Part shown: positions 7,122-41,906 of the stretch, in pieces
Layout of the letters: each line of letters opens with the position of its first letter
Numbering within the stretch: the first letter of the stretch is position 1
Virus record (IMG/VR): IMGVR_UViG_3300028844_007301
Location: 1 to 42,925 of that record
Direction: 5' to 3' (one strand)
Length of the DNA: 42,925 nt
Origin: a virus
Notes under the pieces: model-generated
What the model saw: only the letters and a program-made list of their open reading frames with translations
Told to the model about the DNA's origin: nothing
Database searches by the model: none
Program-made: the position numbers and the translations under genes

Positions 7122-8069
7122 ATGTTTTTTAGTAAAAATGTTGATGAGCAAGACCAGTATCACCAAACAATAAGAAATCTGGTTGTTGTTATAGGATCAT
7201 TGTTTTCAAAAATGGTTCTTGTCCGTAAGAATCATAAGTCAGGTGACATTGAAGAAAAGATTGTAGTACCAATTAGCTTTGCAAATCGTGATAAGATGCT
7301 TACTTTAATTCGTGATGCACCTGCTGTTGAAGATAAGAATACAAACTTAACACTACCAAGAATTGGATTTTCGTTTGATGGTTTGTCTTATGATAGTCAA
7401 AGACAATTACCTAAAACAGGTGGAAGAGGACGACCAACAAACGAACAAAAAAACAAAAAAGATGTGCTTGTAATGTACAATGGAGTGCCGTATAATTTTG
7501 AATTTACAGTTTCAATTCTTGCTAAATATGCAGAAGATTTAACACAACTTGTTGAAAAAATCTTACCGTATTTTACACCAAATTTGAATGTGACATATCG
7601 TGCAATACCTGAATTAAGTATTGACATTGATGTGCCGATCATGTTGAATGGTGTAACATGGACAGATCAATATGAAGGCCTACAGGAGAGAAGACTACTT
7701 ACCGCCGACCTTGCTTTAACAGCAAAATCATATATCTTTCCGCCGATTAAAGATTATCCTAGAGTAAATACAGTATTTGTGGAGACACATACTTTAGGAA
7801 AAATTGGAACTGAAGATTTACAAAAATCTCGTAAGAAAGCCCTTTATCTTGAACAACGAATGCCGATTGCTACTGAAACTTCTGGAAGTTTACAGGATGA
7901 AGAAGCAAGTTCTGCTTTGAATGATCCTATTGCAAATGAGCATAGCTTAGTTAAGATTTATGGTTATGATGAAAATGATGATTTTGGTTTCAAAACTTTT
8001 GTCTATGAAGGCTCAAATTATGACGAAGAGCATGAAAGAGAAGAGGCTTGGAAAAAAGAAAACCCATAA
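7122..8069 (+). CDS. 15: Tail terminator / sheath stabiliser (T4 gp15-like)
   Basis: 315 residues. gp15 caps the finished tail and joins it to the neck. Recognisable segments are YHQTIRNLVVVIGSLFSKM near the N-terminus, VPISFANRDKML (residues 49-60), LPRIGFSFDGLSYDSQRQ (78-95), VPYNFEFTVSILAKYAEDL, QLVEKILPYFTPNLNVTY, and DVPIMLNGVTWTDQYEG. Length is slightly above T4 gp15 (272), the excess being an acidic C-terminal tail rich in Glu and Asp. It follows gp14 by 7 bp with an AGAGA ribosome site. In T4 the next gene is gp16. Here three membrane-protein genes intervene. Confidence 0.85.
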   Translation: MFFSKNVDEQDQYHQTIRNLVVVIGSLFSKMVLVRKNHKSGDIEEKIVVPISFANRDKMLTLIRDAPAVEDKNTNLTLPRIGFSFDGLSYDSQRQLPKTGGRGRPTNEQKNKKDVLVMYNGVPYNFEFTVSILAKYAEDLTQLVEKILPYFTPNLNVTYRAIPELSIDIDVPIMLNGVTWTDQYEGLQERRLLTADLALTAKSYIFPPIKDYPRVNTVFVETHTLGKIGTEDLQKSRKKALYLEQRMPIATETSGSLQDEEASSALNDPIANEHSLVKIYGYDENDDFGFKTFVYEGSNYDEEHEREEAWKKENP

Positions 8070-8081
8070 AGGAGAATTAAA

Positions 8082-8543
8082 ATGAATTTATTTTTGAAAT
8101 GGTGGCTACTCATCACACTCACACTCACAGGTTTAGGTGTTGCAACCTATTTTAACTTTTTGAATTTCATGTATGTGCATGACTTTACAAAACTCTCTGT
8201 TGCAATTCTAAGTATATTCGCCGCCACCAGTGTTGTGATTGGATATAAATTATGGAAAAGTTCAGTTAAAGGAGACGAAAAATATACTTATGATCGGGAA
8301 TGGTTTGTGAGTGAAATGGTAATTACTTTAGGCATGATTGGAACTGTTATCGGATTTATTTACATGCTGTACTCAGTTTTTTCAAATTTAAATATCAACG
8401 ATACTTATGCCATTCAGGAAAGTTTAACACAAATGGCAAGCGGTATGGGTACAGCATTGCTTACAACATTGGTTGGGTTAGTAAGTAGTGTTCTTATTAA
8501 AAGTCAACTGGTAATGGTGGAATCATATGTTAAAGTACAGTAG
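8082..8543 (+). CDS. ExbB/TolQ/MotA-like ion-channel subunit (phage-encoded)
   Basis: 153 residues with four predicted membrane helices (about 8-30, 36-57, 76-100, 122-140) and short connecting loops. The last two helices carry the signature of the MotA/TolQ/ExbB proton channel family: GMIGTVIGFIYML (84-96, family pattern GLLGTVxGMI) and MASGMGTALLTTLVGLVSS (118-136, family pattern IAxGIxxALLTTxxGL), including the paired Thr128-Thr129 and the small residues that line the ion path. It is far shorter than ExbB (about 240) or MotA (about 290), with most of the cytoplasmic region missing. A perfect AAAGGAG precedes the ATG. The next gene, an ExbD/MotB-like partner, starts 17 bp inside its end. 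Function in the phage is unknown. Family membership is my inference from motifs and gene pairing. Confidence 0.72.
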   Translation: MNLFLKWWLLITLTLTGLGVATYFNFLNFMYVHDFTKLSVAILSIFAATSVVIGYKLWKSSVKGDEKYTYDREWFVSEMVITLGMIGTVIGFIYMLYSVFSNLNINDTYAIQESLTQMASGMGTALLTTLVGLVSSVLIKSQLVMVESYVKVQ

Positions 8544-9261
8544 TAATCTTGCATTTATTGATCTTCTTTTCAACTTAATTTTGGGATTTGCATTCCTTTT
8601 CATCGTTGCATTTCTTCTAATTAATGATCCAACGGAAACAGCAGACATTGAAGCAAACGTTGAATACATGATCACAATGAGTTGGGAAGGAGAAAAAGAT
8701 ATTGATTTAGACCTATGGATTGAAGGCCCAAGTGGTCTTGTAGGTTTTCGGGATCCCTCACAAGGATTCATGAACCTTGACCGAGATGATTTAGGACATC
8801 GTACGGATACAATTTATGCGGGCACGGATAAGATGGAAGTTGTTCATATCAATCAAGAGATTATCAACATTCGTGGTTACCAAGCTGGTGAATATGTAAT
8901 CAATGGACATTATTTCTTTACAAAGGAACCAAAAGAAAAGAGGCGGACAGTTGCCGAAGTTAAAGTGATTAAGTTGAATCCTTTTGAAGAAGTTTGGCAA
9001 GGAACAAAAGAGTTTGAATTTCGTGGACAAGAACTTACCTTTGTTCGCTTTGACATGACACCTGAAGGACGTTATACAAACATGCATGATTTGCAAAAGC
9101 ATCTTGTAATGAAACCTGATGGTACTGGACCTGGCACAGGTTGGGTAACTTTACCAAATGATTCAAATCGTAATACAAGAGGCTCTGGACCATCCGGTGC
9201 CGTTACGCAACAAATGCAAATTAATAGTGATCCAGTTTATGGAGGCATAGGAGGACCATGA
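8527..9261 (+). CDS. ExbD/TolR/MotB-like protein with an extracytoplasmic beta domain
   Basis: 244 residues. The N-terminus is one membrane helix (8-33) beginning AFIDLLFNLILGFAFLF. D12 in FID sits where ExbD, TolR and MotB carry their single essential membrane Asp. Residues about 45-175 form a soluble domain with DIDLDLWIEGPSG (58-70), NLDRDDLG (83-90) and GYQAGEYVINGHYF (117-130). This resembles the DUF2135/YfaP-type beta-sandwich, which has DxDLxVxxPxG and LDRDN signatures. There is no OmpA-like peptidoglycan-binding domain. The C-terminal 50 residues are Gly/Pro/Asn-rich and probably disordered. Its start overlaps the channel gene and its stop overlaps the next start (ATGA), so the trio is translationally coupled. 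The DUF2135 assignment is tentative; the TM-Asp architecture is clearly visible. Confidence 0.68.
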   Translation: MLKYSSNLAFIDLLFNLILGFAFLFIVAFLLINDPTETADIEANVEYMITMSWEGEKDIDLDLWIEGPSGLVGFRDPSQGFMNLDRDDLGHRTDTIYAGTDKMEVVHINQEIINIRGYQAGEYVINGHYFFTKEPKEKRRTVAEVKVIKLNPFEEVWQGTKEFEFRGQELTFVRFDMTPEGRYTNMHDLQKHLVMKPDGTGPGTGWVTLPNDSNRNTRGSGPSGAVTQQMQINSDPVYGGIGGP

Positions 9262-9791
9262 CTTACTTAATTATTTTAGCGATATTTTTAGTTTCATTAT
9301 TTTTGTGGCTGATGATTGATGTGCGTAAAAGTGCCCACATGCTGTACATCATTCCTCTAACAATTTTGTTCACTGGTGGAAGTTACTTCTACATTGATTC
9401 ATTGTTTGGGTATCCAACTTCATTAACAAATGAAAAGAAGTTCATGCTTGTTTCTTATATACCAGATGAAACAGGTGATAATATTTTCATGTGGGTAATG
9501 CTTGAAGGTGATGCAAAACCTAAGGCAATTCAAATACCATATTCACAAGAGAAACATAAGGCTCTTGCTGCCGCTACTGAAGGTATGAAAAAAGGTCGCC
9601 AATTTGTTGGTGAGTTTGATCCTGAACTTTCGGGTGAAGAAAATGAGGGACAAGAAGGTGATCCAGGAACGAACAGTGAACAACATGCAGGTGGCACAAT
9701 CAAATCAAAAGGTGGTGGTTTTGCTCTACTTGAACTTGATGTAGAAGCCACACTTCCGAAAAAAGCAGGCCATGAAGAATACGAAGATTGA
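9258..9791 (+). CDS. Third membrane protein of the ExbBD-like cassette (unknown)
   Basis: 177 residues, not assigned to a family. Two hydrophobic helices at about 2-21 and 28-47 are separated by a short basic turn (VRKSAH). A soluble region follows: GYPTSLTNEKKFMLVSYIPD, FMWVMLEGDAKPKAIQIPYS and a Lys/Ala-rich helix around 98-112. Then comes an acidic, Gly-rich linker (about 122-150) and a short C-terminal strand FALLELDVEATLP. It starts in the ATGA overlap with the ExbD-like gene and overlaps the small terminase gene by 20 bp, so it belongs to the same coupled unit. It may be an accessory or plug subunit of the channel complex (inference from gene order only). A hairpin-anchored protein of another function is equally possible. 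Confidence 0.7.
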   Translation: MTYLIILAIFLVSLFLWLMIDVRKSAHMLYIIPLTILFTGGSYFYIDSLFGYPTSLTNEKKFMLVSYIPDETGDNIFMWVMLEGDAKPKAIQIPYSQEKHKALAAATEGMKKGRQFVGEFDPELSGEENEGQEGDPGTNSEQHAGGTIKSKGGGFALLELDVEATLPKKAGHEEYED

Positions 9792-10218
9792 GCCAATTGA
9801 AGTTTCAAACGAAGTACCTGTTGAATTCATCGAAGAAGGTGCGGAAAGAAAACTTCAAAAAGTTGAAAAGTACAACGCAATTACACCATACGAGGGTGCA
9901 ACGTCCTCGGATGAAGATTTTGAATTTGCTCAAGATACAATCAAAGAGACAATTTTAAAATCAAACGAAGTTTTACAGGAACTAGGTCAAGCTGCCATTC
10001 TCAATGAGAATGGCAAACTCTATGAATCATATTCTCAACTGATGAAAAATATCATCGATGGTTCATCTGCTCTACTTGATCTACATGTAAAACAAAAGAA
10101 AGTAAAAGAAATAAAAGAGAAGCTCGAGCCTTCTCAAACCAACACTCAAATAAATAATATAGTTGTTGGTTCAACAAAAGATCTTCTTGACATGATTGAA
10201 AACAAGATAAAAGATTAA
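9772..10218 (+). CDS. 16: Terminase small subunit (T4 gp16-like)
   Basis: 148 residues. The small subunit recognises concatemer DNA and stimulates the large-subunit ATPase. The sequence contains the gp16 helical core: DEDFEFAQDTIKETILKSNEVLQELG (about 47-72), then YESYSQLMKNIIDGSSALLDLHVKQKKVKEIKEKL (about 85-119). This is the long coiled-coil hairpin that forms the oligomer in T4 gp16. The N-terminal stretch is acidic and likely disordered; the C-terminal part (VVGSTKDLLDMIENK) is a short amphipathic helix. T4 gp16 is 164 residues. The gene overlaps the membrane-protein gene by 20 bp and ends the operon 87 bp before the giant fibre gene. Position after gp14 and gp15 supports the call. Confidence 0.75.
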   Translation: MKNTKIEPIEVSNEVPVEFIEEGAERKLQKVEKYNAITPYEGATSSDEDFEFAQDTIKETILKSNEVLQELGQAAILNENGKLYESYSQLMKNIIDGSSALLDLHVKQKKVKEIKEKLEPSQTNTQINNIVVGSTKDLLDMIENKIKD

Positions 10219-10252: not shown

Positions 10253-10260
10253 TATAAATA
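10253..10260 (+). promoter_or_regulatory. Late promoter for the giant fibre gene
   Basis: TATAAATA, an exact match to the T4 late promoter octamer. It lies in the 87-bp gap between gp16 and the giant gene, 45 bp before its ATG. The rest of the gap shows no other clear signal. Confidence 0.75.
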
Positions 10261-10305: not shown

Positions 10306-13300
10306 ATGGCCGACACCATTTCTAAAATACTCATTAAAAGTTCTTTAGTAACTGATACTCCCTCCGCAAGTGACCTTGAACGAGCAGAACTAGCTTATTC
10401 ATACTCATCAAATCGTCTATTCATTGGACATCCAGATGGCAATCAATCACCAATGGTGATTGGTGGTACAAAATTCCTTGAACTATTTGAAACTATTCTT
10501 GATGATGATGGCACAATCAACTCTGGTCAAGTATTATCAAACAGAGTAATTGTTGCTGGTGAAGATCGTGATCTTGATTTTCTGGATATTGGTGTATTAA
10601 AAGTTGCTGGTAGAGAACTCGCCACAAGATTTATTGATAAAGTAACCACATCAAATGCATTTAGTGATGTTAGCCATACACAATTGGCAACAGCACAAGC
10701 AACAAAAGAATATGTCGATCAAAGAACAGAAAGATTTTTACTTAACTTTGACGAAGAATCGATACAAGAAGCACAAATTCTAATTGCTGATGCGAACAAT
10801 CGTTTTGAAAATCGAACGATTACTGGTGATGTTATTCTAAGTTCTGATGGTTTTACAAAAATTCGTGATGGTATCATTAAGAATGAAATGCTCAAGAATG
10901 CATCGATTCTTGTTGGTACTCAAGAAGTTAAACTTGGTGGTAGAATTATCATCAACATGAATGAAGATACCTCTGGTATTCTTCGTGTACATCGTGGTGG
11001 TATTGGTCGGTCACACCTCGAGAAACATCAAGTTGTTTTAGGTAATGAACTTGAAGCAGTACAAACATCAAGCAATTTTATATTTGATACAATTGAAAAT
11101 AAGTTGTACATCAATGAAAGAGCAGAGATCACTCGACATCTTTCAATTGGCGAATCTCTTGAAGTTGCAGATAGTTTCTTTGCTACTGCAGATTCAATTC
11201 GTTTTCACGATTATTTTAAAGTTGATCATACAGATAAATCTGTCAACATCGATGCTGATAATTTATCTATTGATGCCGATATTGATCTCACAAGTAATTT
11301 AATTGTTGCGCATACAAACACATTTGATTTGTTTGCGAAATCAACAAATCTTTATGGTGATTCTCTTTACATCTCGGCAAATACTGTTACTGTCAGTAAA
11401 GCACATACAACATTTGACGGTGAAGTTATTGTTAATGGTAAGAGTACGGTCAATGGTGATACAATTGTCAATGGTAAATCAACAATCAACGGCGATAGTA
11501 CAATCAATGGTGATGTACAAGTTAACAGTGATAATGTAAATATCTCCTCTTCAACAGTTACTGTAGTTGATGGTGTAGTTACATTTAACAATGATGTTGA
11601 TTATAATGGTGATACAATCACTGTATCAAGTGGAACAGTTACAACTGTCTATGGTGATGTTGATATTCAAAATCAATTAATATCATTCAATACTTTACAG
11701 TATGAAGTTGATGGTACAAGAATTGATTTTAATAGTATTGACTTTGAAATCTCAAACGGTACCCATACAACGATTCAAGGTGATAGTACAATCAATGGTA
11801 AAACGAATTTTACTGGTGATATTCTTATTGAATCGAATAATGTTGAATATAGTCTTGGTACACTCACAAAATTTGTTGGTCCAGCAATCTTCAATAATGA
11901 TATTTCTATCGTCAATGATCTAATATCGATCGATGCAAATGAATTTGAGGTCTCATCGAATACAAGATCAGTGTTCAATGGTATAACGATCTTTAATAAT
12001 GTTTCTCAACTGAATGGTGAGTTGTTTGAAATCAGTCCATTCACAGAAACAATCTACAAAGGTACTGTTGAATTTCAAAACCTAACAACTTTCAATGCAG
12101 ACTCAACATTCAATGAAGGTATCTATGTCAATAGCAATTTATACCTATCTGCAGATACAAATCTAAGTAGTGATGCAACTTCACAGTTCCGTGGTGAGAC
12201 AACTTTTGACAATAAGGTTTCCATCAATGATGAGCTTACAGTCACAGCGCCTTCAGTTTTCAACAACATTGTTGAAATCAATGATGCAACCACAATCAAT
12301 GCACCAACGGTTATCAATGACATAACAACAATCAATGATGCGACCACCATCAATGCACCACTTCGTGTAAATGATAATGTCAGCATTCGTGAATCACTCA
12401 CCATTGAGAAAGATTTGATTGTTGAACGTGACCTATTCGTTCAAGGAAACACCGTCCAGATTGACGTACAAACGATGGTTGTTGAAGATAACATCATCGT
12501 AGTTGGAAAGAACAATGAAGCCGATGCTGTTGATTTGGGATTTGCTGCAAAGTACAAGTATGAAGGTGTTGATGCATATGCTGGTATTTTCCGTGATGCC
12601 GCAGATAAGAAATTCCATCTCTTTCGAAAATATGATGCCGAACCTGGTATCACAATGGGCAACTATGAACTTGCCACTTTAGTTGGTGACTTTGAAGCAA
12701 ATCAGGTATTGATTGAATCTGGAACGATCAGTGATGTAACAATGCATCGTCCAGAAATCCACAAGGCAACATTGATTGATGCCAAGTTAGAAGGTACAGT
12801 CATTCATAATTTGTCAGCAACTGCGGCATCAATTGATCATTCAACCGCTAATGATGTTTACATCAAGAACAGTGTTCTTCAATATTCTGATGTAAAACAT
12901 TCAGAGTTAGATACCATCACATCAGTAAACTTTACAGGTACAGATACCTATTTGACTGATGGCTGGGTGAAGAACTTTGACATCTATGATTCAAGAGCAA
13001 ACAATTTCACTGCCACCAATGTTTACATAACAACTGGTACAATTGATGATTTTGATGTTGATGATATTCGTGTTACCAATTTTGATTTAAAGCATGGTGA
13101 TATTTTCAATGTTGATATTGATAATGTAAGAGCAAACAATCTCACCGCAACAAACGTATATCTGTTTGATGGTACTCAGTACAACTTTGAAATTGAGAAA
13201 ACCATTTCAAAGAACTTTACCGGTACTGATACATTTTTGACAAAAGGTACAATTGAAGATTTCGAACTTACAGATATTCGTGTCCAGGATTTCGATCTCA

Positions 13301-16300
13301 AGAATGGTAAAATTTGGAATGTTGAAATTGAAAAGATTTCATCCGCAAATGATGTCACAGTCACCAACTTTGATTTAAAGCATGGTGATATTCAAGATGT
13401 TGATGTTGAAGATATGCGAGCCAATAATGTTGTATCAACAAATACACATTCAACATTTGGTCATATTGAAACATTTACTGCCAATAATATCACAACAACC
13501 AACTTTGATTCGAGACAGGGATATCTACAGGATATTGATGTTGAGGATATGAGAGCAAATGATGTTGTTGCAACAAACTTGAATCTGGATCATGTTGTAG
13601 CAAACGATGTGACCACAACAAACTTTGATTCAAGACATGGCTATCTTCAGGATATTGATGTTGTTGATATGCGGGCGGAAGAGGTCAAGGCAAAGTTTGT
13701 CGAATTAGATCAAGTCACTGCAAATGGCGTGACAACCACCAACTACAAATCATATCACGGTTATCTTGAAGACACCGATGTTGAAGATATGAGAGCAAAT
13801 GGTGTTGTTGCTACGAATTTAGATTTAGACCATGTTGTAGCCAATGATGTAACAACAACCAATTTTGATTCAAGACATGGCTATCTACAGGATATTGATG
13901 TTGAGGATATTCGTGCAAACAATGTAGTTTCGACAAATGTACATTCAACCTTTGGACATTTAGAAACATATACACAAAACAACATTACAACAACCAACTT
14001 TGATTCGAGACAGGGATATCTACAGGATATTGATGTTGAGGATATGAGAGCCAACAATGTTGTTAGCACAAACACACACTCAACATTTGGTCATTTAGAA
14101 GATTTCACTGCAAACAATATCACAATCACAAACTTCAAACTTCAATATGGTACAATTGAAGATTATTCAATTGAAGATGTCCGTGCAAACAATGTTAATA
14201 CGACAAACTTTGTAACAGCACATGGTGATTTGACTGATATTGATGTTGAGGATATGAGAGCCAATGCTGTGATTTCAACAAATGTTCATTCAACCTTTGG
14301 ACATCTTGAAACATACACTGCCAATAATATCACAACTACCAACTACAAATCATATTATGGTTATCTTGAAAATACTGATGTTGAAGATATGCGGGCCAAC
14401 AATGTTGTATCAACGAATACACATTCAACCTTTGGGCATTTAGAAACATTCACTGCAAATGGTATCACAACTACCAACTACAAATCATATCATGGTTATC
14501 TCGAAGATACAGATGCAATTGATCTAAGAGCAACAAACGTAGCACTCGACACTGGTACAATTACAAACTTTGATGCTACTCATATTCGAGTAACAAATGA
14601 TCTTAAAGCAACAAACGTAACACTTGATACTGGTACCTTAACTAACTTTGACATTTATAATTCAAGAGTTTATGAAACACAAATTGTTGACCGTTCAACA
14701 GCAAACAATTTAGAATCAAACAATGCAACTTTAACTTTTGCTGAAATCTACGATACAAGATCAGAAAGACTATGGTCAAACAATGCTACTCTTGAAAATG
14801 CAGTCATTAAAAGAGCAGAAATTGAAAACATTGAAGGTATCAATTATAGCCTAACTGCTGGTGATATCACAAATTTCGAAATTTATGATTCAAGAGCAAA
14901 CAATTTCACTGCAACAAATGTATACTTGACCACTGGTACATTTGATGACTTTACAATGCGTGATTCAAGAACAGAAAGAATCACTGCAAATGCAACAACT
15001 GGTACCAACTTTGATCTAACAACTGGTACAATTGATAACTTCTTAGTCAAGAATAGTACATTTGAAGCAATTGTCGCAAACAATGTAAATGGTACAAACT
15101 ATGTTCTTGATACTGTAATTGCAGATAAAGTATTCTTGAACACAGGAACAATTGACCTTTTTGACATTGTTGATTCAAGAACATATAATATCACTGCAAA
15201 CAATACAACTGGTGAATACTTCTTCTTAACACATGGTACACTGGAAGACTTTACGATTGAAAAGTCTCGAATGAACAACAGTGTTGCCAACAATATGGAA
15301 ATCAATGATTCGACAATCAACAATGCAACATTGTGGAATGCGAATCTTGCAGGTATCACAATCACCGGTGCGGTTACAACACAATCAAAGTTTGATGATT
15401 CAACAGCAAACAATGTAGTTATCAACCAAAGTACATTACAAAATAGTTATATTAAAGATACTAACTTTGATCGTGTTGAAGGATATGATCTAACAGCAAC
15501 GAATGTATTCTTGTATGATGGTACACTTGAAAACTTTGATATTGAAGCATCAAGAGCCAACAATTTAACTGCTACAAATGTATATCTAACAACTGGTACA
15601 ATTACTGATTTTGATGTTGATGATATAAGAGTTGAAGCATCAACTGCAAACAATCTAACAGCAACCAATGTATATCTAACAACTGGCACAATTACTGATT
15701 TTGATGTTGATGATATAAGAGTTGAAAAGGCTGAAGCAAATAATGTTACGGCGACCAATGTATATTTAATGACCGGTACAATTGAAGATTTTGATGCTGA
15801 GAATATACGAGCAAATAATGTTACTGCAACAAATGTATTCTTAACAACTGGCACAATTGACCAGTTTACAGGAACACATCTTCATATTACAGATGATTTC
15901 AAAGCAACAAACGTTGTATTAGATACTGGTACATTAACCAACTTTGATATCTACAACTCTCGAGTTTATGATACACAAATTGTTGAAGAATCTTCTGCAA
16001 ATAACTTAGTATCAAATAACGCTACGTTAACATATGCAGAAATCTTTGACACAAGATCAGAAAGATTGTGGTCAAATAATGCTACACTTGAGAACGCAAT
16101 AATCAAACGTGCTGAAATTGAGAACATTGAAGGTAAGAATTATAGCTTAACAGATGGTGATTTAACCAATTTTGACATTTATGATTCAAGAGCCAATAAC
16201 CTCACCGCTACTAACGTCTATCTTGAAACTGGTACGATTGAAGATTTTGATGTTACGAATATTCGTGTTGAAGCATCAACTGCAAATAACTTAACAGCAA

Positions 16301-19300
16301 CCAATGTATATCTAACAACTGGTACAATTGAAGATTTTGATGTTACAAATATTCGTGTTGAAGCATCAACTGCAAACAACTTAACAGCAACGAATGTATA
16401 TCTTGAAACTGGTACGATTGACAATTTCACAGGTACACATCTTCATATCACAGATGATTTGCAGGCAACCAATGTCACAATGGACACTGGTTCAATGGTC
16501 AACTTTGATATTGAAGCATCAAGAGCCAACAATCTAACCGCAACAAATGTATTCTTAACTGATGGTACGATTGATAACTTTGACCTTGAGGCATCAAGAG
16601 CCAACAATCTAACCGCTACTAACGTCTATCTTGAAACTGGTACAATTGATAACTTTGACCTTGAGGCATCAAGAGCCAATAACTTCACCGCTACTAACGT
16701 CTATCTTGAAACTGGTACAATTGACAATTTCAAAGGTACTCATCTTCACATCACAAATGATCTTAAAGCGACAAATGTTACGCTTGATACTGGTACAATT
16801 ACCAACTTTGACATTTATAATTCAAGAGTTTATGATACGCAAATTGTTGAAGAGTCCAGCGCAAATAACTTAGTATCAAATAATGCGACCTTAAACTATG
16901 CAACATCTGAATATCTCACATCAAACAATGCAACAATCACAAATGCAAAAATTAAGAATGCAGAGATTGAAAACATTGAAGGTATCAATTACGATCTTAA
17001 AGCTGGTGATATTGATGACTTTGATATTGAGAATTCAAGAATTGCAAACTCAACATTAAATCTTGTCACTGGTACAAATGTTGATTTAGATGGTGGTTTA
17101 ATTGAGAACTATGAAATCAATGATAGCTTTGGTAATAATGTTACGCTTAATTTCTCAACATTAAATGATGCACAACTGAATAGACCAACTCTTGATCATG
17201 CAACACTGACCGGCGTAACAATTGCTGGAGCGGTTGCAACAGAATCAAAGTTTGATAATTCAACCGCAAACACTGTAGTTATTAATGATAGTGAAATTTA
17301 TACTACATTAATTGAAAACTCAAATGTTGAAAACATCACTGGTAATAATGTATACTTAACCGGCGGTACTCTTGATAACTTTAAGATTTATCGTTCAACA
17401 ATCTATGATTCACAGATTGTTCAGAATTCAGAAGCAGAATATCTAACATCAAACAATGCACAATTAAATGATGCCACTATTCTCAATGCAACTGCTGAGA
17501 ATCTAACATCAAACAATGCAACAATCACTTATGCACAAGCGCATTATCTAACATCAAATAATGCCACTTTACATCGAGCTGATATTTTTGATACTGAAGG
17601 TATAAGAGTTGATTTAACAACAGGTACAATTGATGATTATGATATCATTGATTCACGAATGGACCGAATGCAGGCAAACAATGTTGCCTTGAACAAAGGT
17701 TCCATGGCTGACTATGATATTGATGGTTCAAGATTGCGACAAGTCACAGGTAATAATGTAGATTTGACAATTGGTACAATTGATGATTATACTATTAAGC
17801 AATCAAACATTGAAGATACTAGCGGTGTACGAGTTAATCTAACAACTGGTATAATTGATCAGTATACCATTAAAGATTCTGATTTAAACAATGTTAATGG
17901 TACAAGTGTAGATTTAACAACTGGTACAATTGATGATTATACTATTCAAAATTCAGACCTTGATACTATTAATGGTGTAAGAGTTGACCTTACTACTGGT
18001 AAGATTGAACATTATGCAATTGCCAATTCAAATTTAAATCTTGTTACCGGTACAAATGTTGATTTAACTTCTGGTGAAATTAAGACATATCACATTGAAG
18101 GATCAACTGCAAACAATCTCACTGCTACGAATGTATATCTTCAGACTGGTACAGCAGATGATATTGATATTACCAACTCAACTCTTGATAGTGTTGAGGG
18201 TACAAGAGTTGATCTAACAACAGGTAAGATTGAACAATATGCAATTGCTAATACAAGCCTGAATCTTGTCACTGGTACAAATGTTGATTTAACTTCTGGT
18301 GAAATCAAAACATATCACATTGAAGGATCAACCGCAAATAACTTAACAGCAACCAATGTATATCTAACAACTGGTACACTTGATACGTTTGATGGTGTAC
18401 GAGTTGATTTGACCACTGGTGAGATTGAACAATATGCAATTGCTAATTCAAGTCTCAATCTTGTCACTGGTACAAATGTTAATTTAACAACTGGTATTAT
18501 TGATGATTATACAATCAAGCAATCAGATATTGAAGACATTGATGGTGTAAGAGTTGATTTAACAACTGGTACAATTACAACATATCATGTTGAAGGTTCG
18601 ACAGCAAATAATCTAACAGCAACCAATGTATATCTAACAACTGGTACTGCTGGTGATTTCACTGTTAGTTCTTCAAAGATTGTTGACACAACAGTTGACG
18701 GAACATTTGTTCCTGCTGATGATAGTGTAGACCTTGGTGCAAATGCCTCACGATTCCAAGATGCATACATTTCAAATGAGTTGAATCTTGGTCTTGCTGT
18801 AATGCGAATCAATGAAGATGGTCATATTGATTTTGTCAATCAAGCTGGTGAGAATGTAAGACTTGCTGACTATGCGATGAAAGAAGATGCTGCTACAGCA
18901 GTTGTTACAGAAACAGCCATTGTTGGTAGCACTTTCTCGGGTAATGTTGTTGCAAACACCATCACAGTTCATGCCGGATCTATTGCGAATGTTGAAATTC
19001 GAAATGCAGACATTTATGGTTCAAGAGTATATGAAACACAATTGATCAATGAGATTACTGCAAATAATGTATTCTCTGATAATGCAGAAATTGAAGATGC
19101 TTTAGTCACTCGAGCAACCATTCTTAATGCAACAGCAAATAACTTAACTTCGAATAATGCAACAATCAGAAATGCAGATATTACAGATGCAACGGCATTA
19201 CGCTTTACCGCAAATAGTTCATCGTTTGGTCAAGTTGAAATCTGGGATTCAAAGATTTATACATCTCAGATTATCGAATCACAAATCATTCAAGAATCAA

Positions 19301-22300
19301 CTGCTGATCAATTAACATCAAATTATGCTACCATTAATGATGCGACAATTGATAAAGCAACTATTACTGATGCCACAGCAGAAAGATTAACTTCCAATAA
19401 CGCTACCTTAAATGATGTTACTATTGAAGAAGGCACTGCAACTGATTTGTTGCTCAACAATGCAACACTTGAAGCCGCAACTGCAAATAATCTAGTCCTC
19501 ACTGGTCCCACAACAATTAGTGGTCATTTATTACCAACTGCAAATGGTGTGTATGATTTAGGTTCTATTGAGAATCCATTCAGACATATGTTCTTGTCTG
19601 GCAGCACACTCTATGTTGGCGGTGTACCAATTACAATGGGTGGTGACGGCTTTAAGTTTGGTGCTGACCTTGCTGATTATTCAAAGTCAAGCGAACAAGC
19701 AGCACATATTCAAACTGAAACCGCACAGATTAATACATTAACTGCAAATACAGGTACGGTCACAATTCTCAGTGGTGAAACATTAACCTATACAGGACTT
19801 AGCACACTCACTGAAATTGATTCAGAAACTGCAGAAATTACTGACTTAACAGTTGGACAAATTGAAGGTAATTATGCCAATGTTGATACCTTAGTTGTTA
19901 CTACAGATACAACTTTAGATGGTACTACAACAATTGGTAATGCTGATATTCAAATTGGTGATGTTGATACACTGACTGCAAGAAAACTAACTGTTACTGA
20001 AGATGCAACAGTTGCCAATTCCGTCACAATTGACGGCTTCACCATGTGGAAAGATGGTGAAGGTCATTTGAAGTTAAGTAACCGTCTTGCTGATTACTAC
20101 CTCAAGACAGATGATACAACCGGTGAACTTGTACGGACAAATCGACTTATTGCTAACAATGCCTTTATTGATGTTCTTGATGCAAATACTGGTTCAGTTG
20201 ATGAACTTGATTCAGTTGATTTAAAGGTAGCTAATTCAATCACATTGAATAACTTTGGAATGGCAATCGATGAAAATGGCCATCTGAAGTTTACACATCG
20301 TCTAGCAGATTATTATCTCAAGACTGATGATACTAGTGGTGAGAAAGTTACTACAAATAATCTGTTTGCACAGAACACATTCGTTAACTTTATTGATGCC
20401 AATACTGCTGAGATTGATGAGCTTGAAGTAGTTAATATTCATGCAACAAATGATGTATCTGCTGCCAATTCCGTTTCAGTTAACGGCTTCACAATGTGGA
20501 GAGATGGTGATGGTTATTTGAAGTTAAGTGATCGTTTAGCAGACTACTATTTGAAAACTGATGATACAACCGGTGAACTTGTACGGACAAATCGACTTAT
20601 TGCTAACAATGCCTTTATTGATGTCATTGATGCAAACAGTGGTACAATTGATGTATTAACAGTTGAAAACATCACAGTCAAAGATGGTACAATTGATGAT
20701 GTGACCTTTAACAATGTCAATGTTAATGGTGGTACAGTTGAATTTATAAACCTGAAGAATTCAACTTTAGTTGATGTTGAAGGTAATCTAAATGAACCAG
20801 ACATTGCTGATCCTGTAATTACTGGTGGTACTTGGACTGATGCAACAACAACGAATACAACACTTGACGGACAGATTGTATTTAATGCTCCATTACTTGC
20901 TGGTACAGATATTGACTTAGGTACAAATACTCAGCGATTCCGTGACCTATATCTTGCAAATGCAATCTCTGTACAAAACGCAACACATGGTGCGTATATC
21001 AGCCTTGATGCAAATGGTCATATCAAGTTCAATGTAAGACTGGCAGATTATTATCTCAAAACAGATGATACCAGTTCAGAGAAAGTTGAGAGTACACTAG
21101 GTATCTTTGAAACTGCAAATGCAGATACAGTTAATGCAACCACAGTCAATGTTGATGACCTATTTGCTGATGAAGCAGATGTCAATATTCTTGCTGCAAC
21201 AAATGCAATTATCACAAGTGGAACAATTACAACACTTGGTACAACTGATATTACCTCAACAGATATCAAAACAAATGATATTCTTGTTACTAATGGTGTC
21301 TTTGTTGGTGGTGAAACAAAAGCCGACTCCGCACTAATTACAGTTGATGAGAATGGACATATTAAGTTCAATGTTCGATTGGCAGATTATTATCTCAAGA
21401 CAGATGATACGAGTGGTGAAAAGGTCACTACTTCAAATCTGTATGCTGGTAATACATTCACTGATGTCATTGATGCAAACACTGGTACAATTGATCAATT
21501 GGAAGGTACAGACCTTGATTATGATAATGCAGTTATTGATACTGCAAACGTCACAAGATCAACGATTACCACTTTACATTCAACTACTGGTACAATTACT
21601 AATATTGATGGTACTACTGCTGACTATACTCAAGGTAAGTTTGGTTCACTTGATGTTACTGGTATCGCAGACATCAATACTATTCAGGCAACTGATGGAA
21701 CAATCACAACTGTCAATGGTACAACAGCAAACTATCTGAATGTAAATGCTACTGAAGAATTGTTTGCAGCAAACGCAACCATTCTTGCTGGTGGTATTTC
21801 AAATGTTCGAATTGACAATGCAGACATTTATAATTCACGAATCTATGAAACTCAAATTACAACAAACTCAACTGCTGAGAATTTAGTTTCAAATACTGCC
21901 ACACTACATGATGCCACTGCATACAACTTAACAAGTGAAAATGCAACCATTAATAATGCTGTAACAAACAACCTGACTTCAAATAATGCAACTCTTGAGA
22001 ATGCAACCATTAAGAAGTCGGTGATTGAAAATTCAGAAATTCGTGTATCAAAGATTATTGAATCAGAGATTGTACAAGAATCAACTGCTGATCAATTAAC
22101 ATCAAATTATGCAACCATTAATGATGCGACAATTGAACGTGCAACAATCAATGATACAACTGCTAATCGAATTACTTCAAACAATGCCACACTCAATGTT
22201 GTTACAATTAAAGGTGGTACAACTGACGGATTACAAAGCACAAATGAAACTCTGACTGATGTCAAAACAATCAATCTAACAACAGAAGGTACGTTTGTTC

Positions 22301-25300
22301 CATCTGTTGATGATACACAAGATATTGGTTCAACTACAGAAAGATATCATGATGCTTATCTATCAAATGAGTTGAACATTGATGGCGTGCGAATGCGAAT
22401 TGTCAGTGGCGAAATTGACTTTGTTGATACTGATGGCAATAATGTAAAACTTGCAGACTATAACATGGCATCTGAAACTGGTGCAACCATCACCAGTAAC
22501 GAAGCAAACTTGAACTTGATTGTTAACAATGAACTAACCGCAAACATTGCTGATGTTGTAGTGCTTGAAGCAGAAGATGCTACCATTGATGAACTCATGA
22601 TTACGACACAATTCACCTCGCCAGAGAATCAATTAGTTAATGCAACAGTCACTGGTACAGCAACAATCAATGATGAAGTTGTTACCACTTCTACTGTAGG
22701 TACTGCAGACATCACAACACTGACGGCAACGAATGTTACCATCACAACTGAAACAGTTGGTACATCAAACATCACAACCGCACAAGTTGATCAACTTGAT
22801 GCAAACACTGCCGTTCTGATTGACCTTGAAGGTACAACTGGTCGCTATGATACTTTCACTGCTGGTGTATTGACGGCAACAACTGCAACAGTCACCGATA
22901 GTTTCACATCATCATTGAATACAACACTTCTTGGTGACACAACAATTGCAGATGCAACAATCACTGAAGAAACTGTCACAACATCAACAATCACCGATGC
23001 AACAGTTACCAACACCTTAACTGTAAATCGTTCATTTACTGCCACAGCAAATGTTACGGATCTATTTGTTGAAAATAATATCGAAGCGCCAAGCGGAGCA
23101 ATTAAAACTCTTGGTGTTCAAAATGGACAAATTGATAATCTAACAGCAACAAACGTTCAATTTGCAAGAAAGATTAGTCTTGAAACTGTCGACATTTCAT
23201 TGAACAATGATAATCAAATTGTCTTCAGCGCAAATGTTGACCATCTGAATGTTACCAATTTAACAACAACTGATGAGCTAACAGTTCATAACACTCTTGT
23301 TGCTTCAGACATCGCAGAGTTTGTAGGTCAAACAACAATGAATGATGTTGCAATCAATGGAACATTCACTGCAAATACGATTGATGTTACGACTTCAGCA
23401 TTGCTTGAGAACGCAACTGTTACGGATACACTGACTGCAATGAATACTGTCCGGTTTGGACAAGCAATTTCATTGAACTCTGCAATCATGTCAGTTGATG
23501 CAAATGGTGAAATCAAGTTTAATGTTCCTCTTGCAGATTATGCAAAAGAACATGGTGAAGGATTCCATGCTGGAGATTTGGAAGGTGATGTCTTCCGTGC
23601 AAACACTGCAACAATTGTTGATGCAGAAATTGAGAATCTAACAACAAACAACACAACGCTGAACTTTGCAACTATCAACGGTGGCGTCATCACAGGATCA
23701 GTCCTGAATGGTGTAACACTTGCTGGTGGTGCTGGTATGATTGATGGCTTTGAGTATTTCAATTCTGTGATGGCAAACACTGTCGCATCGAATACTCATA
23801 TGACAGAAGGTACCATCGATGATTTCGAAATGACGAATTCATTGATTCTTGATTCAACAATGAATGATTCTTCTGCGAACAATCTAACAATCACTTATAG
23901 TGAACTCAAAGAATCACTGCTTGAAAATGTAAGAATCACAGGACATTTAATTCCAACTGCAAATGTCACTTATGATTTAGGTACACCAGATTTGAGATTT
24001 AGAGATTTATATCTCAGTGGATCAACAATCAACATTGGTAGTGCTGCAATCTCAATGAATGAAGAAGAGGGTACACTTGAAACAGACAAGTTCCGTGTTG
24101 AAGATCAAGTTGCAAACAGTTCAACATTAAATTACCTTGACAGTTATCAGGCAACAATCAATCAATTAACTGTCAACAACTTCGTCACCAATGATTCAAC
24201 AACATTGAACATTGCACAAATCAACAAGCTGCAAAGTACATCTGTTGATTTGACTGAAGTACAAGTCAATGAGCTTGATGCAAACACTGCACGATTGATT
24301 GATGCAAACATTGGTACAGCACAAGTTAATGCTCTGAACGCAAACACTGTTGACTTACTTGACGGTACAATTCGAAGCATTGAAATATATGATTCTTATT
24401 CTGACAACTTGCTGGCAGAAAATAGTACACTTGAAAGAGGTACTATTGAAGATATGACCATCGGTAATACAACTGTCAAGTTCATCACAGGTACAGATGT
24501 TGACTTGACAAGAGGTACGATTGATGATTATACAATCAAGAATTCTCAGATACAGGATACAACTGCAACTAATCTTGATATTTCTGGCAGTGAATTTACA
24601 AATGTTGAAATCTACGATGGTTATTCAAACAATCTAACCGCAGAGAATTCAACATTAGTTACTGGTTCAATTCATCGTTTTAATATCACTGATACAACTG
24701 CACAAAGAATCACTGGTACAGATTTCAATCTAACAAATGGTTCTCTTGACAACTTTGATATTCGAAACTCAAGAGTTTACGATACACAAATTGTTGAAGA
24801 AACAAGTGCAAACTATTTGGTATCAAACAATGCCACATTGCATGTTGCCACAATTCATGATAGCACAACATACAATGCTGTCATACACAATGCCGAGGCA
24901 TATAATTTAACATCAAATAATGCCACATTGAATCAAGCAACAATTCTTGATTCAACAATTCGAAATGCACAGATTTATAATTCAACAATTCATGAATCTC
25001 AAATTGTTAGTGAATCACATGCTGATGAATTAACATCAAATAATGCCACATTGCATGTTGCCACAATCTATGATAGTACAACTCATCGAGCTACAATTCA
25101 TGATGCACATGCAAACAACTTGACTTCTGATCATGCAACATTAGAAGATGCTTCACTCGCCAACTCATTCATCACAACTTCAACCTTAGATGGTGTAATT
25201 CTCAAGAATTCATCAATGCAAGGAATGTCTGTTGATTGGGTAACCATTGGACATGCATCAATTGATGATTCATGGGCAAACACAATGGAGATCCGTGAGA

Positions 25301-28300
25301 GTTTCTTTGAGAACAATGATTTTGAAGATTCAAGAACAGCCAATTCAACAATCAAACTTTCAACAATCAATGATTCAGTAGTCAATGATTCGGATGCACA
25401 TCGCTTGAAAGTTTATGACAGTGACCTATTTGATATTCGTGTGACAAATGGTACATTTACAATTGTCAATACAGAAGATTTAACTGCAAATGATGTGACA
25501 TTGACAAACGGTACTTTAGATCGTTTCACAACAACCAATGTTGATTTAACAACTGGTACAATTGATGATTATAATATCATCAATTCAAGAATCTATGATA
25601 CACATGCAAATAATTTAATCGTTGATGTAACAACAATTAAAGATGCAACAATCACTGATGCTAATATTGCTACTGCGGATGTTGATACACTTTATGTTGA
25701 TACAACATTTGGTCAAATTGGAACAATTCTGAATCTAACATCGAATTTTGTTTCAACAACTGATGCATTAATTACGAGTGCAGATATTACTGGAGCAAAT
25801 GTTAATACTGCAAATATTGATTTTGCAACTGTTGATTATGCAAACATTATTGATACAGATATTACAGAAGCTGAAGTTGAACTACTTACTGTAAATAATG
25901 CATTCATTACAACAGGTAGCTCAACCTGGCATGATATTGTGAACTTAGATGCACTCAATGGAACAATAAGAGATTTAACAGTCAATCAAACGGCGACAAT
26001 TACAAAAGAAATTGTTACCGAATCAGATATCAATACTGGTAAAATTGTTAATGCCACATTGACAACTGCGGATATTGGTGATGCAGAAATTGCCAATACT
26101 GAAATTGGTTATGCAAATGTTGGTAAATTAGTTGTTGCTCAAACAGAAATGCAAGATGTTGTTGCTGAAACACTTACCGCAAATCGTCTTGACATTAATG
26201 TTTCATCTTATTTGAAGCAAGCAGAAATTAATACATTGACCTCAACAACAATGTCTGCTTCAAATAAAGTTTTGGCACCTACAATTAAAGCAACTTTACT
26301 TGCCGATCTATTTGAAGCAGAGATTGAAAAAGAAACTGTTACCGAATCCTGGATTACAACGGCACATATTACAACTGGTTATGTTGATGATTTACATTTT
26401 ACATCCGCAAGTCCAGATGTCCTTACAGCAAATACAATTCATGTAAAAGATCTGGCAAGTGCAAATGCAGTTCTATCAACTGCTACAATCACCAACTCAG
26501 GATTTAGTGATGGCTTGATTCAGAACACCGAAATTCGTTTCTCTGATTTCAAGTATGGTGAAATTGTTGATTCAAATATCACAGGTGGCACAGCAAACGG
26601 ACTCAATCTTACCACATCTGTTCTGGATGATATCACTGTTCTTTCTGGTAATATTTTCAATGTTGTCATTGATGGTGCAATCATTAAGGAAGCAGTATTT
26701 GATGGAGGTATGGGACAAATTCGCAACTATGAGATCTATGATTCATATGCGAATTCATTTGTCATGGATGATTCAATTCTCAACCGACCAATTCTGAATG
26801 CTCCTGTCATCAATGGTGCGCAACTTCAAGGTGCCTTCGGTAGATTTGTTGATTTCGAATTCTGGGAATCAAAAGCAAACAATCTATTCCTGCGTGATTC
26901 AACAGTCAATACATCATTGATTGAAGATTCAACCGCAGAGAATTTGACAATTGCAAACAGTACAATCACATCGACTTCAACGATCAATGGTGCATCACTG
27001 AACGATGTGTTAATTGAGAAAGCTACCGCAAATGATGTTCAGCTTTCTAATGCTACAATTTCTGATTCAACGTTTGAAGATATTGTTCTGAATAATGTAA
27101 GAATTACCGGTTTTTTAATTAATGATGCTGTGACATCAAGTGGCGGTGAATTGTCTAGTGGTGACGGTTCTGCCAACTCTGGCAACGCAGGATTCTTAGA
27201 TGGTGAATACTTTGGTGAGGGTGGACTTCTGCTTGGAATTCGCTTGCATGATGCGACCGCAAATGACCTAATAGTCAACACCGGTACGATGCATGATGTG
27301 TTGATGCAGAATTCAACCATTCGTGATTCTGTTGCAAACAATATGACCTTCAACTCTGGTACATTGTATGATTTTGACATCTACAATTCCAGAATTCATG
27401 AGACACAAATTGTTCAAGATTCAACTGCTGAAAACTTGATTTCAAACAATGCAATCTTGAAGAATGCAACTGCCGAAAGTTTGACCAGTGCAAATGCAAC
27501 CATCACCACTGCAACGATCACAAATGCAATTGCGACCAATCTACAATCAACGAATGCAACAATCAGTTCAGCAACCATTCTGAATTCAACTGCAAACAAT
27601 CTGTCATCTGCAAACGCAACATTGACAGATGCCGATATTGTAGATTCTGCAGCAAACAATTTATTTGTTGAAAATTCAACAATCATGTTGTCAACACTTG
27701 ATACTGTTCAAATTAATGGTTCAAGTGCAAACAATTTAACTGTCAACAATTCATTCATTACAAACACTTCAATTGTTGATAGTACTGCTGAAAGATTGAA
27801 TAGCAACAATAGTGTAGTTGCTAATTCGACAATTACGAATTCATCACTTGAACAAGTAGCAATCACGAATTCAGACTTTACTGGAAACATTCTGACTGGA
27901 TCACAAATCAATGGCACTACAATCATTGGTGGTTCGGCACAAGGTGTTGCAATTTCTGGATCAACTGCTACGAATCTAAGTGCAGCACAATCAATTCTTA
28001 CGAATTCACAGATTCGAAATTCAACTGCAAATAATCTGACATCAAATGATGGTACATTCAATCGTCCATTTGTTGATTCAGCCACAGTTGAAAATGCAAC
28101 CGTTGCGAATTCAACATTCACAAACATCACGATTACAGATAGTAATCTTGGTACACTATCACTTGAAGGTTCAACTGCCAATGATTTGTCAGTCACTTTA
28201 TCTTCAATTGAAACAAGTGCTATTGCCAATTCAACAATTACAAATACATCTCTTGAGCAAGTTGTTGCTGCAAATTCAGAATTTAAATTAACTACAATTC

Positions 28301-37271: not shown

Positions 37272-38324
37272 TTATAAATTTCCTTTAACGCCATCAATGA
37301 AATAGTTCATGGTAAGAAGTTCTGTATCAGAAGGAACAGCACCTTTCTCAACAACAAGTTTACCATCTCTGTCATAAATCGGTCCGGTAAATACTTGATA
37401 TCGTCCAGTCACAATTTCTTGCTTCTTTTTATTTACAATTTCTTGAACTTTTGGATCTACCATCTTGCCAAATTTTGACAAGTCAACAATTCCTGTATTC
37501 ATTCCCCACCACTCACTGTCAGAAGTCCACTTATCATCTTGTACTCGCCTTACCAATTCAACATAGTAGCGTCCCCAGTTGAAGATTGGTGCGGTTAGAT
37601 GTGCTTTTGGTCCATAGAGTGTCATGTCTGAATCATTACCAATGGCGTACAAGCCTCTTTTATTAGCTGCTTGTGTTGCTGCGGCAGAATCGGTTGTAAT
37701 ATGAACAACATCTGCACCATTGTCCATCAAAGTATTTGCTGCAGCACCTTCTTTCGCAGGATCAAACCAAGAGTTTACCCAGATAACATTTACTGTTGCA
37801 TCAGGATTTACTGAACGAGCGCCAAGAGTGAAGGCATTGATGTGTCGTACAATCTCAGGAATTGGATGAGAACCGATAACTCCAATTTCATCGGTCTTTG
37901 TTTGCATACCGGCAACCATTCCAGCAAGATATTTTGCTTGATACATTCTTGCAAAGTAATTGCCCATATTGTCTGCTGTTTTGAAACCGCTACAATGCAT
38001 GAAAATTACATCAGGAAATTGCTTTGCAACTTCAAGAGTTGGATCCATGAAACCAAAGCTTGTTGTGAAGATCACATTGTATCCTCTTCGTGCAAGATTT
38101 CTTAGCACTCTTTGAGAATCAGTTTCAGGCACACTTTCAACATAAGTAGTTTCAATGCCAAGTTTTTCGAGTTCACGCCTTCCAAGGTCATGAGCATAAG
38201 TCCATCCACCATCACCAACCGGACCTACATAAACAAAGGCTGCTTTAACTTCTTTAGCATATGTGGTGTTTGAAAAGGCGAAAAGGGAAAGAATCAGTGA
38301 GAAGGTCAACAAAAGTTTTTTCAT
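37272..38324 (-). CDS. BMP-family (PnrA/BmpA-like) ABC-transporter solute-binding protein, secreted
   Basis: 350 residues. Residues 1-23 are a standard Sec signal peptide (MKKLLLTFSLILSLFAFSNT), cleaved after TYA by signal peptidase I. There is no lipobox Cys, so it is a free periplasmic protein. The mature part follows the BMP family throughout: AAFVYVGPVGDGGWTYAHDL, VIFTTSFGFMDPTLEVAKQF, MHCSGFKTADNMGNYFARMY, YLAGMVAGMQTKTDEIGVIG, NAFTLGARSVNPDATVNVIW, NSWFDPAKEG and AIGNDSDMTLYGP. Characterised members (PnrA, BmpA types) bind purine nucleosides for an ABC importer. No permease or ATPase gene is present, so it would have to work with a host transporter. GGAG lies before the ATG. It probably derives from a bacterial host and acts as an auxiliary metabolic gene; ligand identity is not readable here. 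Confidence 0.9.
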   Translation of the reverse strand: MKKLLLTFSLILSLFAFSNTTYAKEVKAAFVYVGPVGDGGWTYAHDLGRRELEKLGIETTYVESVPETDSQRVLRNLARRGYNVIFTTSFGFMDPTLEVAKQFPDVIFMHCSGFKTADNMGNYFARMYQAKYLAGMVAGMQTKTDEIGVIGSHPIPEIVRHINAFTLGARSVNPDATVNVIWVNSWFDPAKEGAAANTLMDNGADVVHITTDSAAATQAANKRGLYAIGNDSDMTLYGPKAHLTAPIFNWGRYYVELVRRVQDDKWTSDSEWWGMNTGIVDLSKFGKMVDPKVQEIVNKKKQEIVTGRYQVFTGPIYDRDGKLVVEKGAVPSDTELLTMNYFIDGVKGNL

Positions 38325-41489: not shown

Positions 41490-41906
41490 TTATTTCAAAA
41501 GTTCTCGCAACTCCATCAATAATATACCAAGATTATTCAGGCCTTTGCCTTTACAAACACCCCAAAACCGATCATTCCAATTATTTCCCTCAATTAATTC
41601 TACATCACCAGTAGCAATTAGTTTATCTTTAAGTTCGGGGTTTAAAGTAAATTTACTTTTTAAAACATCTCTCATCACATTAATCTTCACAGTTTCCCAA
41701 TCTTCTCTCAACTCTACTTTTCTTCCCTTTCTTTTTGCTTGACCAGCAGAAAGATTAAAAAAGTCTTCTCTCACTTTCATATCTAAACATTTTGCTGCTT
41801 GAAATGCCGCCTCACTATTTAAAAATGTTTGTCCTTCAAATTCAACAGGACAAGAATAAAAGTTTGAAAGAAAATCGTATTCACCACGAAAACTATCAAT
41901 TGTCAT
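41490..41906 (-). CDS. NADAR-family (YbiA-like) ADP-ribosylglycohydrolase
   Basis: 138 residues. The family pattern is complete: FRGEYDFLSNFYSCPVEFEG, LNSEAAFQAAKC, FFNLSAGQAKRKGRKVELRE, DWETVKINVMRDVLKSKF, a TGDVELIEGN segment, DRFWGVCKGKGLNNLGILLM and LRELL at the end. Members (YbiA, DUF1768) cleave N-glycosidic bonds. Some remove ADP-ribose from guanine in DNA and neutralise DarT1-type toxins. A phage copy could therefore undo host ADP-ribosylation of phage DNA, or act in NAD or riboflavin-intermediate metabolism. AAGGA precedes the ATG. It shares a start region (ATGACAATTGATA) with the next gene upstream. Confidence 0.88.
   Translation of the reverse strand: MTIDSFRGEYDFLSNFYSCPVEFEGQTFLNSEAAFQAAKCLDMKVREDFFNLSAGQAKRKGRKVELREDWETVKINVMRDVLKSKFTLNPELKDKLIATGDVELIEGNNWNDRFWGVCKGKGLNNLGILLMELRELLK

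Follow-up and report, generated by a model that had tools for sequence, protein, structure and literature searches.

A three-gene phage cassette with kinship to ion-driven envelope motors, located between gp15 and gp16 of a T4-like phage and present in other marine and rhizobial phages

A T4-like phage carries, between its gp15 and gp16 genes, three overlapping membrane-protein genes (A, B and C) that form a real, co-evolving system, and whose kinship with the ion-driven motors of the ExbB/MotA kind is well supported. Flagella, the Ton and Tol systems, and Zorya defence all run on motors of this kind. By analogy with these, the trio would be an ion-driven envelope motor of a type first seen here in phages; we found no published case of a phage bringing its own ExbB/MotA-kind motor, and the open-access literature, which leaves subscription journals aside, yielded no description of a phage ExbB/MotA/TolQ-type cassette or of a link to SbmA. 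The trio is common to T4-like, other marine, and rhizobial phages and is linked to protease and peptide-importer genes, a pattern suggesting that the phages put energy into the host envelope for ends of their own.

The window, the whole stretch of DNA that was analyzed, is a 42.9-kb (42,925 bp) fragment of a T4-like phage from a virus record. Its gene order, read from profile matches (Pfam, PHROGs), is 14–15–[A–B–C]–16; the gene preceding gp15 is the T4 neck protein (PF11649, 8.4e-26), and gp17, gp18, and the tail tube gene are on the opposite strand. The three open reading frames match exactly the positions given for them in the initial annotation, which had also correctly counted four helices in A, one in B, and two in C. 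The cassette and its flanks are organized as follows.

7122–8069, + strand: gp15, tail sheath stabiliser, left flank (PF16724, E 2.3e-51)
8082–8543, + strand: gene A, 153 aa, predicted minimal four-helix channel subunit of the MotA/TolQ/ExbB type (PF01618)
8316–8495, + strand: region of A matching the MotA_ExbB profile, with helices 3 and 4 and the motifs GMIGTVIG and ALLTTLVGL
8527–9261, + strand: gene B, 244 aa, with helix 3–32, a predicted periplasmic beta-sandwich (47–187), and a disordered tail (AlphaFold2)
8560–8562, + strand: codon for Asp12 of B (NLAFIDLLF), set opposite the ExbD Asp (PFIDVML in E. coli) in an hhalign register that is non-significant by itself
9258–9791, + strand: gene C, 177 aa, with predicted helices 2–21 and 28–50, a small mixed domain (61–121), and a disordered Gly-rich tail (AlphaFold2)
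9772–10218, + strand: gp16, terminase small subunit, right flank, overlapping C (phrog_445, E 1.9e-17)

Gene A starts 12 bases past the end of gp15 (8069) and is preceded by a strong ribosome site (AAGGAG), and the genes that follow overlap by 17 bases (A/B), 4 bases (B/C), and 20 bases (C/gp16). The T4 late promoter motif TATAAATA occurs three times in the window, against 2.7 expected, and not before A, so that the timing of expression cannot be argued from the promoter.

The product of gene A matches the MotA_ExbB family (PF01618) with 34 bits (E 2.8e-8; curated cut-off 22.9), and two other members of the A family also score above the cut-off (L071, 24.7; L074, 24.8); the rhizobial members fall under it (20.1 bits in phage AF3 and 12.4 bits in phage 16-3) and take the corresponding position in the trio. 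Hydropathy identifies four hydrophobic segments with positive loops consistent with both ends being inside the cell. Built from 35 homologues, a profile of the family aligns with E. coli ExbB over the channel motifs (hhalign E 8.8e-5), pairing GMIGTVIG with GLFGTVWG and ALLTTLVGL with LLATAIGL, and its five best PDB sequences all belong to the superfamily (MotA, ZorA, and a MotA/TolQ/ExbB protein), albeit with weak E-values of 0.06–0.8. Gly84, Gly87, Gly132, and Asp34 are invariant among 51 non-redundant homologues, position 129 is Thr or Ser in all 51, and Thr88 is present in 48. The initial annotation had read A as a minimal four-helix protein of the MotA/TolQ/ExbB type, to be given up if profile searches returned no such family; the PF01618 match above the cut-off and the alignment with ExbB uphold that reading. 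Judged from its sequence, A constitutes a minimal branch that is new to this known superfamily. In one locus (L082, 3161–4028, + strand) there is a tandem duplicate of A before B, and both copies match the A profile.

The gene B product is modeled as a helix (3–32) followed by an all-beta domain (47–187) in which the pLDDT is mostly over 90 (AlphaFold2, built on 40 viral homologues; the B and C models both use homologues from viral contigs, with the rhizobial ones left out). Asp12 lies within the helix and is found in every one of the 51 non-redundant homologues, the sole apparent gap (L012) being an internal deletion immediately past this residue. The best hhalign register sets Asp12 on the ExbD Asp (pFIDv); because this alignment is non-significant by itself, the likeness of B to ExbD is one of architecture, short of demonstrated homology. 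No family was found for B in Pfam, PHROGs or NCBIfam, and its sequence profile returned nothing useful from the PDB. The proposal that B is an ExbD-type partner thus holds in part: the single N-in helix with its invariant Asp, the lack of which would have refuted the proposal, is there, and B is not a plain ExbD, since its periplasmic domain has another fold. Full membership of ExbD/TolR was rejected on this difference in fold together with the lack of a Pfam match, as was membership of MotB, as B has no OmpA-like peptidoglycan-binding domain (no Pfam match and a different fold). The outer domain is nearest to DUF4425-type sandwiches, one of which was solved with calcium (Foldseek probability 0.97–0.98, with a weak E of 0.02), and Asp60, Asp62, Asp87, Asp88, and Glu111 are invariant among the homologues. 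This likeness and the invariant acidic residues make a metal site plausible, and the modeled beta-sandwich possibly binds calcium.

Gene C codes for what is, by its sequence, a new protein. It has no family in Pfam, PHROGs or the PDB, and a fold search with its model (helices 2–21 and 28–50, domain 61–121, and the Gly-rich tail) gave no credible match. Like B, it is without a homologue of known function. As a candidate force transducer of the TonB/TolA type, C shows no periplasm-spanning region, no receptor-binding domain, and no family or fold match.

The trio can be placed among the known motors by these features. It shares with ExbB–ExbD and TolQ–TolR the conserved channel helices of A (GTVxG, ALLTTxxGL), the N-in helix of B with its Asp in the FID register, and adjacent, overlapping genes. 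It differs from them in that A, with 153 aa and four helices, is almost without a cytoplasmic domain, in that the periplasmic domain of B is a predicted beta-sandwich instead of the ExbD/TolR fold, and in that the system is phage-encoded, lacks TonB/TolA, and has a third gene of no known family. The MotA–MotB stator likewise has a four-helix subunit with a channel motif and, as predicted for A, both ends inside, together with an Asp-helix partner; however, A lacks the torque-generating cytoplasmic domain and aligns only weakly with E. coli MotA in direct hhalign comparison, and B lacks the OmpA-like domain. ZorA models are the top-scoring NCBIfam and PADLOC profiles for A, but A has no long cytoplasmic ZorA tail and the trio is found in phages and not with defence genes. 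Assignment of the trio to Zorya (ZorAB) was rejected, as A scores 29 bits against a cut-off of 500 and neither B nor C has a ZorB match.

Loci were gathered by scans with A alone, B alone, and each of two neighbouring genes alone (SbmA and c0, described below). Each of the 145 untruncated loci (82 distinct DNA sequences, 51 of them non-redundant) has the three genes complete, in the same order, and on a single strand, and the 17 incomplete loci are all broken off by the end of the sequence. The distance matrices of A, B, and C correlate at 0.84–0.89 (shuffled maximum 0.18), and comparison of the window with L003 indicates purifying selection on B (dN 0.07, dS 0.78) and C (dN 0.12, dS 0.73). 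Strict linkage, correlated distances, and purifying selection on B and C establish the cassette as a real, co-evolving system. The cassette of some rhizobial phages has taken in small genes or a homing endonuclease, with the A–B–C order intact; the endonuclease genes are Seg-like or HNH (L039, 3111–3869; L040, 4556–5098; both + strand).

Most carriers are marine, and their nearest cultured relatives infect Rhizobium. The trio occurs on marine viral contigs, both T4-like and other, where its genomic settings number at least seven, and in 27 named phage records. These 27, from a total of 50,697, were matched alike by four different B queries, are all Rhizobium or Sinorhizobium phages, and have the trio genes annotated as hypothetical; the same B queries did not find the trio in the other approximately 50,000 records. 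A tblastn search of the named phages with A gave no match, B being required to reach the rhizobial relatives. No cellular homologue was found in two scans of bacterial and archaeal genomes using short exact peptide patterns of low sensitivity, nor in one plasmid scan; given that sensitivity, the trio may still have a cellular origin. Since the rhizobial carriers, including the classical phage 16-3, are cultured, the function of the trio is directly testable.

The gp15–gp16 setting is that of the window's clade. In other phages the trio is between uvsY and uvsW, beside ClpS and Fe-S genes, or beside DnaB and DnaE-like genes (the names uvsY, uvsW, DnaB, and Fe-S being readings of the sequences by eye and not profile results), and in another marine group it is among DNA-metabolism genes (primase-helicase, ribonucleotide reductase, and PhoH, also by eye). 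In rhizobial Pootjesviridae it is beside late-sigma and gp46/47 genes, and in the temperate rhizobial phage 16-3 it consists of p038, p040, and p042 and is about 4 kb from the immX immunity genes. A tree of the joined A–B–C proteins groups the cassettes by setting, indicating that moves of the cassette are rare but repeated. The trio had been taken as a feature of the neck and terminase morphogenesis operon, and its occurrence in the uvsY–uvsW, ClpS/Fe-S, DNA-metabolism, and late-sigma/gp46–47 settings contradicts this; because the same trio is located elsewhere in other phages, the gp15–gp16 position does not carry the function.

The genes that recur beside the trio code for proteases and a peptide transporter. 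In the largest marine group c0 precedes A, and C is followed directly by a full-length SbmA/BacA transporter gene (SbmA_BacA, PF05992, 414 bits) and then by ClpP; SbmA is directly downstream of the trio in many phages, as a neighbour and not a part of it. The other partner families identified by Pfam are ClpP (PF00574), ClpS (PF02617), and an HtrA-like Trypsin_2 protease (PF13365). The c0 product has a hydrophobic signal-peptide-like start and an invariant CxSxCA...GFH pattern, and appears to be a secreted serine-hydrolase-like protein; as it is ClpP-like by motif only and its profile gave no secure match in the PDB, any enzyme activity is a guess. The arrangements are as follows.

c0–ABC–SbmA–ClpP: largest marine group
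ABC–c0–SbmA–ClpP: L165
SbmA–ABC–ClpP: L074
ABC–SbmA, with an HtrA-like protease two genes further: L120
ABC–SbmA, after gp46: L122
ABC–ClpS–SbmA, plus ClpP: L123
ABC–ClpS: L018
HtrA-like protease–ABC: phage 16-3 and relatives

The association also emerges when the search starts from the neighbours. When SbmA alone was the query, 18 loci were returned; one of them is cut, and A–B–C is upstream of SbmA in 16 of the 17 informative ones; 11 of the 16 are in the known marine group and the rest are in new settings (one with ClpS between), and the remaining locus (L124) has SbmA–ClpP without the trio. With c0 alone, the trio is adjacent in 46 of 61 informative loci. Taking one record per synteny group, 7 of 11 protease or ClpS hits are within 3 kb of the trio (1.8 expected; reached in 0 of 5000 shuffles). 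For SbmA the figure is 5 of 7 (1.3 expected; 9 of 5000 shuffles). Among the named phages, four records match SbmA, and none is related to the trio phages. In the window's clade no protease or SbmA gene adjoins the trio: a 49-kb contig identical to the window over the cassette is without PF05992, PF13365, PF00574, and PF02617, and a 105-kb relative has SbmA 21.6 kb from the trio. A 144-kb contig (L059) has no protease or SbmA partner at all. Phage auxiliary genes cluster, and the neighbours may therefore be linked by shared timing instead of function.

Other genes were noted in these regions. In part of the T4-like clade (L013, L015, L017, L022, and L032; e.g. L043, 7062–7544) a gene for a secreted 160-aa protein, c18, is between gp15 and A, the place taken elsewhere by the secreted hydrolase; c18 has no family or structure match. 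Less than 6 kb from ABC–SbmA there are, judged by eye, ammonium-transporter-like and Na/phosphate-cotransporter-like genes in L120 (10235–11407 and 12328–12810) and a Na/phosphate-cotransporter-like gene in L122 (8699–9181).

The reading that we favor, tentatively and with somewhat less than even confidence, is that A–B–C works as an ion-driven motor of the envelope in the service of periplasmic proteolysis and peptide salvage; the recurrent protease, SbmA, and ClpP/ClpS neighbours are what point to this role. The three proteins would form one phage-made machine in the inner membrane, with A assembled as a channel ring round the helices of B and Asp12 acting as the ion carrier, by analogy with ExbB/ExbD, TolQR, and MotA/MotB. 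Ions running down the host gradient would move B and its outer domain, and the B beta-sandwich and the small C domain would do their work at the outer side of that membrane, perhaps with the motor tugging at envelope proteins or unfolding them for the protease. During infection the machine would thereby help to break down and salvage proteins of the envelope or periplasm, with a secreted hydrolase or HtrA outside, SbmA/BacA importing the peptides, and ClpP/ClpS inside, and the amino acids recovered would feed virion synthesis. Phages like that of the window, in whose visible part A–B–C stands alone, would depend for the remaining steps on genes of the host or on phage genes farther away. That these parts (hydrolase, A–B–C, SbmA, and ClpP/ClpS) constitute a new class of machine, an inner-membrane motor powering phage-run proteolysis and salvage across unrelated phages of marine bacteria and of alphaproteobacterial (rhizobial) hosts, is a broader and more doubtful proposition. 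The initial annotation had listed lysis, envelope remodelling, export, and exclusion of rivals as possible roles, a list that the recurrent neighbours narrow towards envelope proteolysis and peptide import.

The same secreted hydrolase and protease genes adjoining the trio would also suit superinfection exclusion or envelope shielding, in which the motor and the hydrolases would block injection by rival phages, altering or digesting either receptors or the tail and ejection proteins that arrive in the periplasm. The proximity of the trio to immX in the temperate phage 16-3, and its being common to many unrelated phages, are in keeping with such a role; however, SbmA, ClpP, and ClpS are left unexplained by it and neither B nor C matches a defence family, and we regard it as unlikely.

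Next in probability, and also unlikely, is that A–B–C is a Ton-like energiser of the outer membrane that drives import of scarce nutrients or peptides, with SbmA completing import across the inner membrane. The hhalign resemblance of A to ExbB and the position of SbmA directly downstream agree with this, as do the transporter-like neighbours in L120 and L122 (by eye) and a Bmp/PnrA nutrient-binding protein, encoded in the window and, in L047 and L049, close to the trio. The trio nonetheless has no TonB-like domain or long periplasm-spanning region, the C domain being small, and no adjacent outer-membrane receptor gene was seen. The Bmp/PnrA-type gene of the window (37272–38324, - strand) codes for a secreted ABC-transporter substrate-binding protein (PF02608, E 8.8e-64); the loci in which this type is near the trio are of the uvsY–uvsW setting, and it is also near SbmA in L047 and L050.

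An improbable alternative is a lysis or membrane-potential device, in which timed ion leakage through A–B (and C) would set off or adjust lysis or open up the envelope. It would draw on the ion-channel homology, the small size of the membrane proteins, and the late-gene locations at gp15–gp16 in the window and at uvsY–uvsW, but the trio is elsewhere among DNA-metabolism genes (by eye) and not with endolysin or spanin genes, its coupled Asp-helix architecture is unlike that of holins, and PHROGs gave no lysis-family match. Counter-defence against Zorya, with A mimicking ZorA and poisoning the host ZorAB complex, is very improbable even though no NCBIfam or PADLOC profile fits A better than the ZorA models, since a score so far under their cut-off is expected of any superfamily member, B is not ZorB-like, and strict linkage with B, C, and proteases would be superfluous for a decoy.

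Three further features of the window are outside the cassette. A single open reading frame of 6646 aa (10306–30246, + strand) has pervasive short repeats (ANNLTATNVYL..TGTI.. units) and presumably codes for a giant fibre; it is preceded by a late-promoter-like TATAAATA site at 10253, and its relatives at other loci are 1300–1400 aa or longer. The portal (gp20-like) reading frame (1–1152, - strand) runs into an apparent intein start (NGCFDLKTKISLLDGRNVELGQL...NGEIITATPDHKFIL) and is cut by the end of the window. Finally, a NADAR/YbiA-like protein, judged by eye (FRGEYDFLSNFYSCPVEFEGQTFLNSEAAFQAAKC), is encoded at 41490–41906 (- strand).
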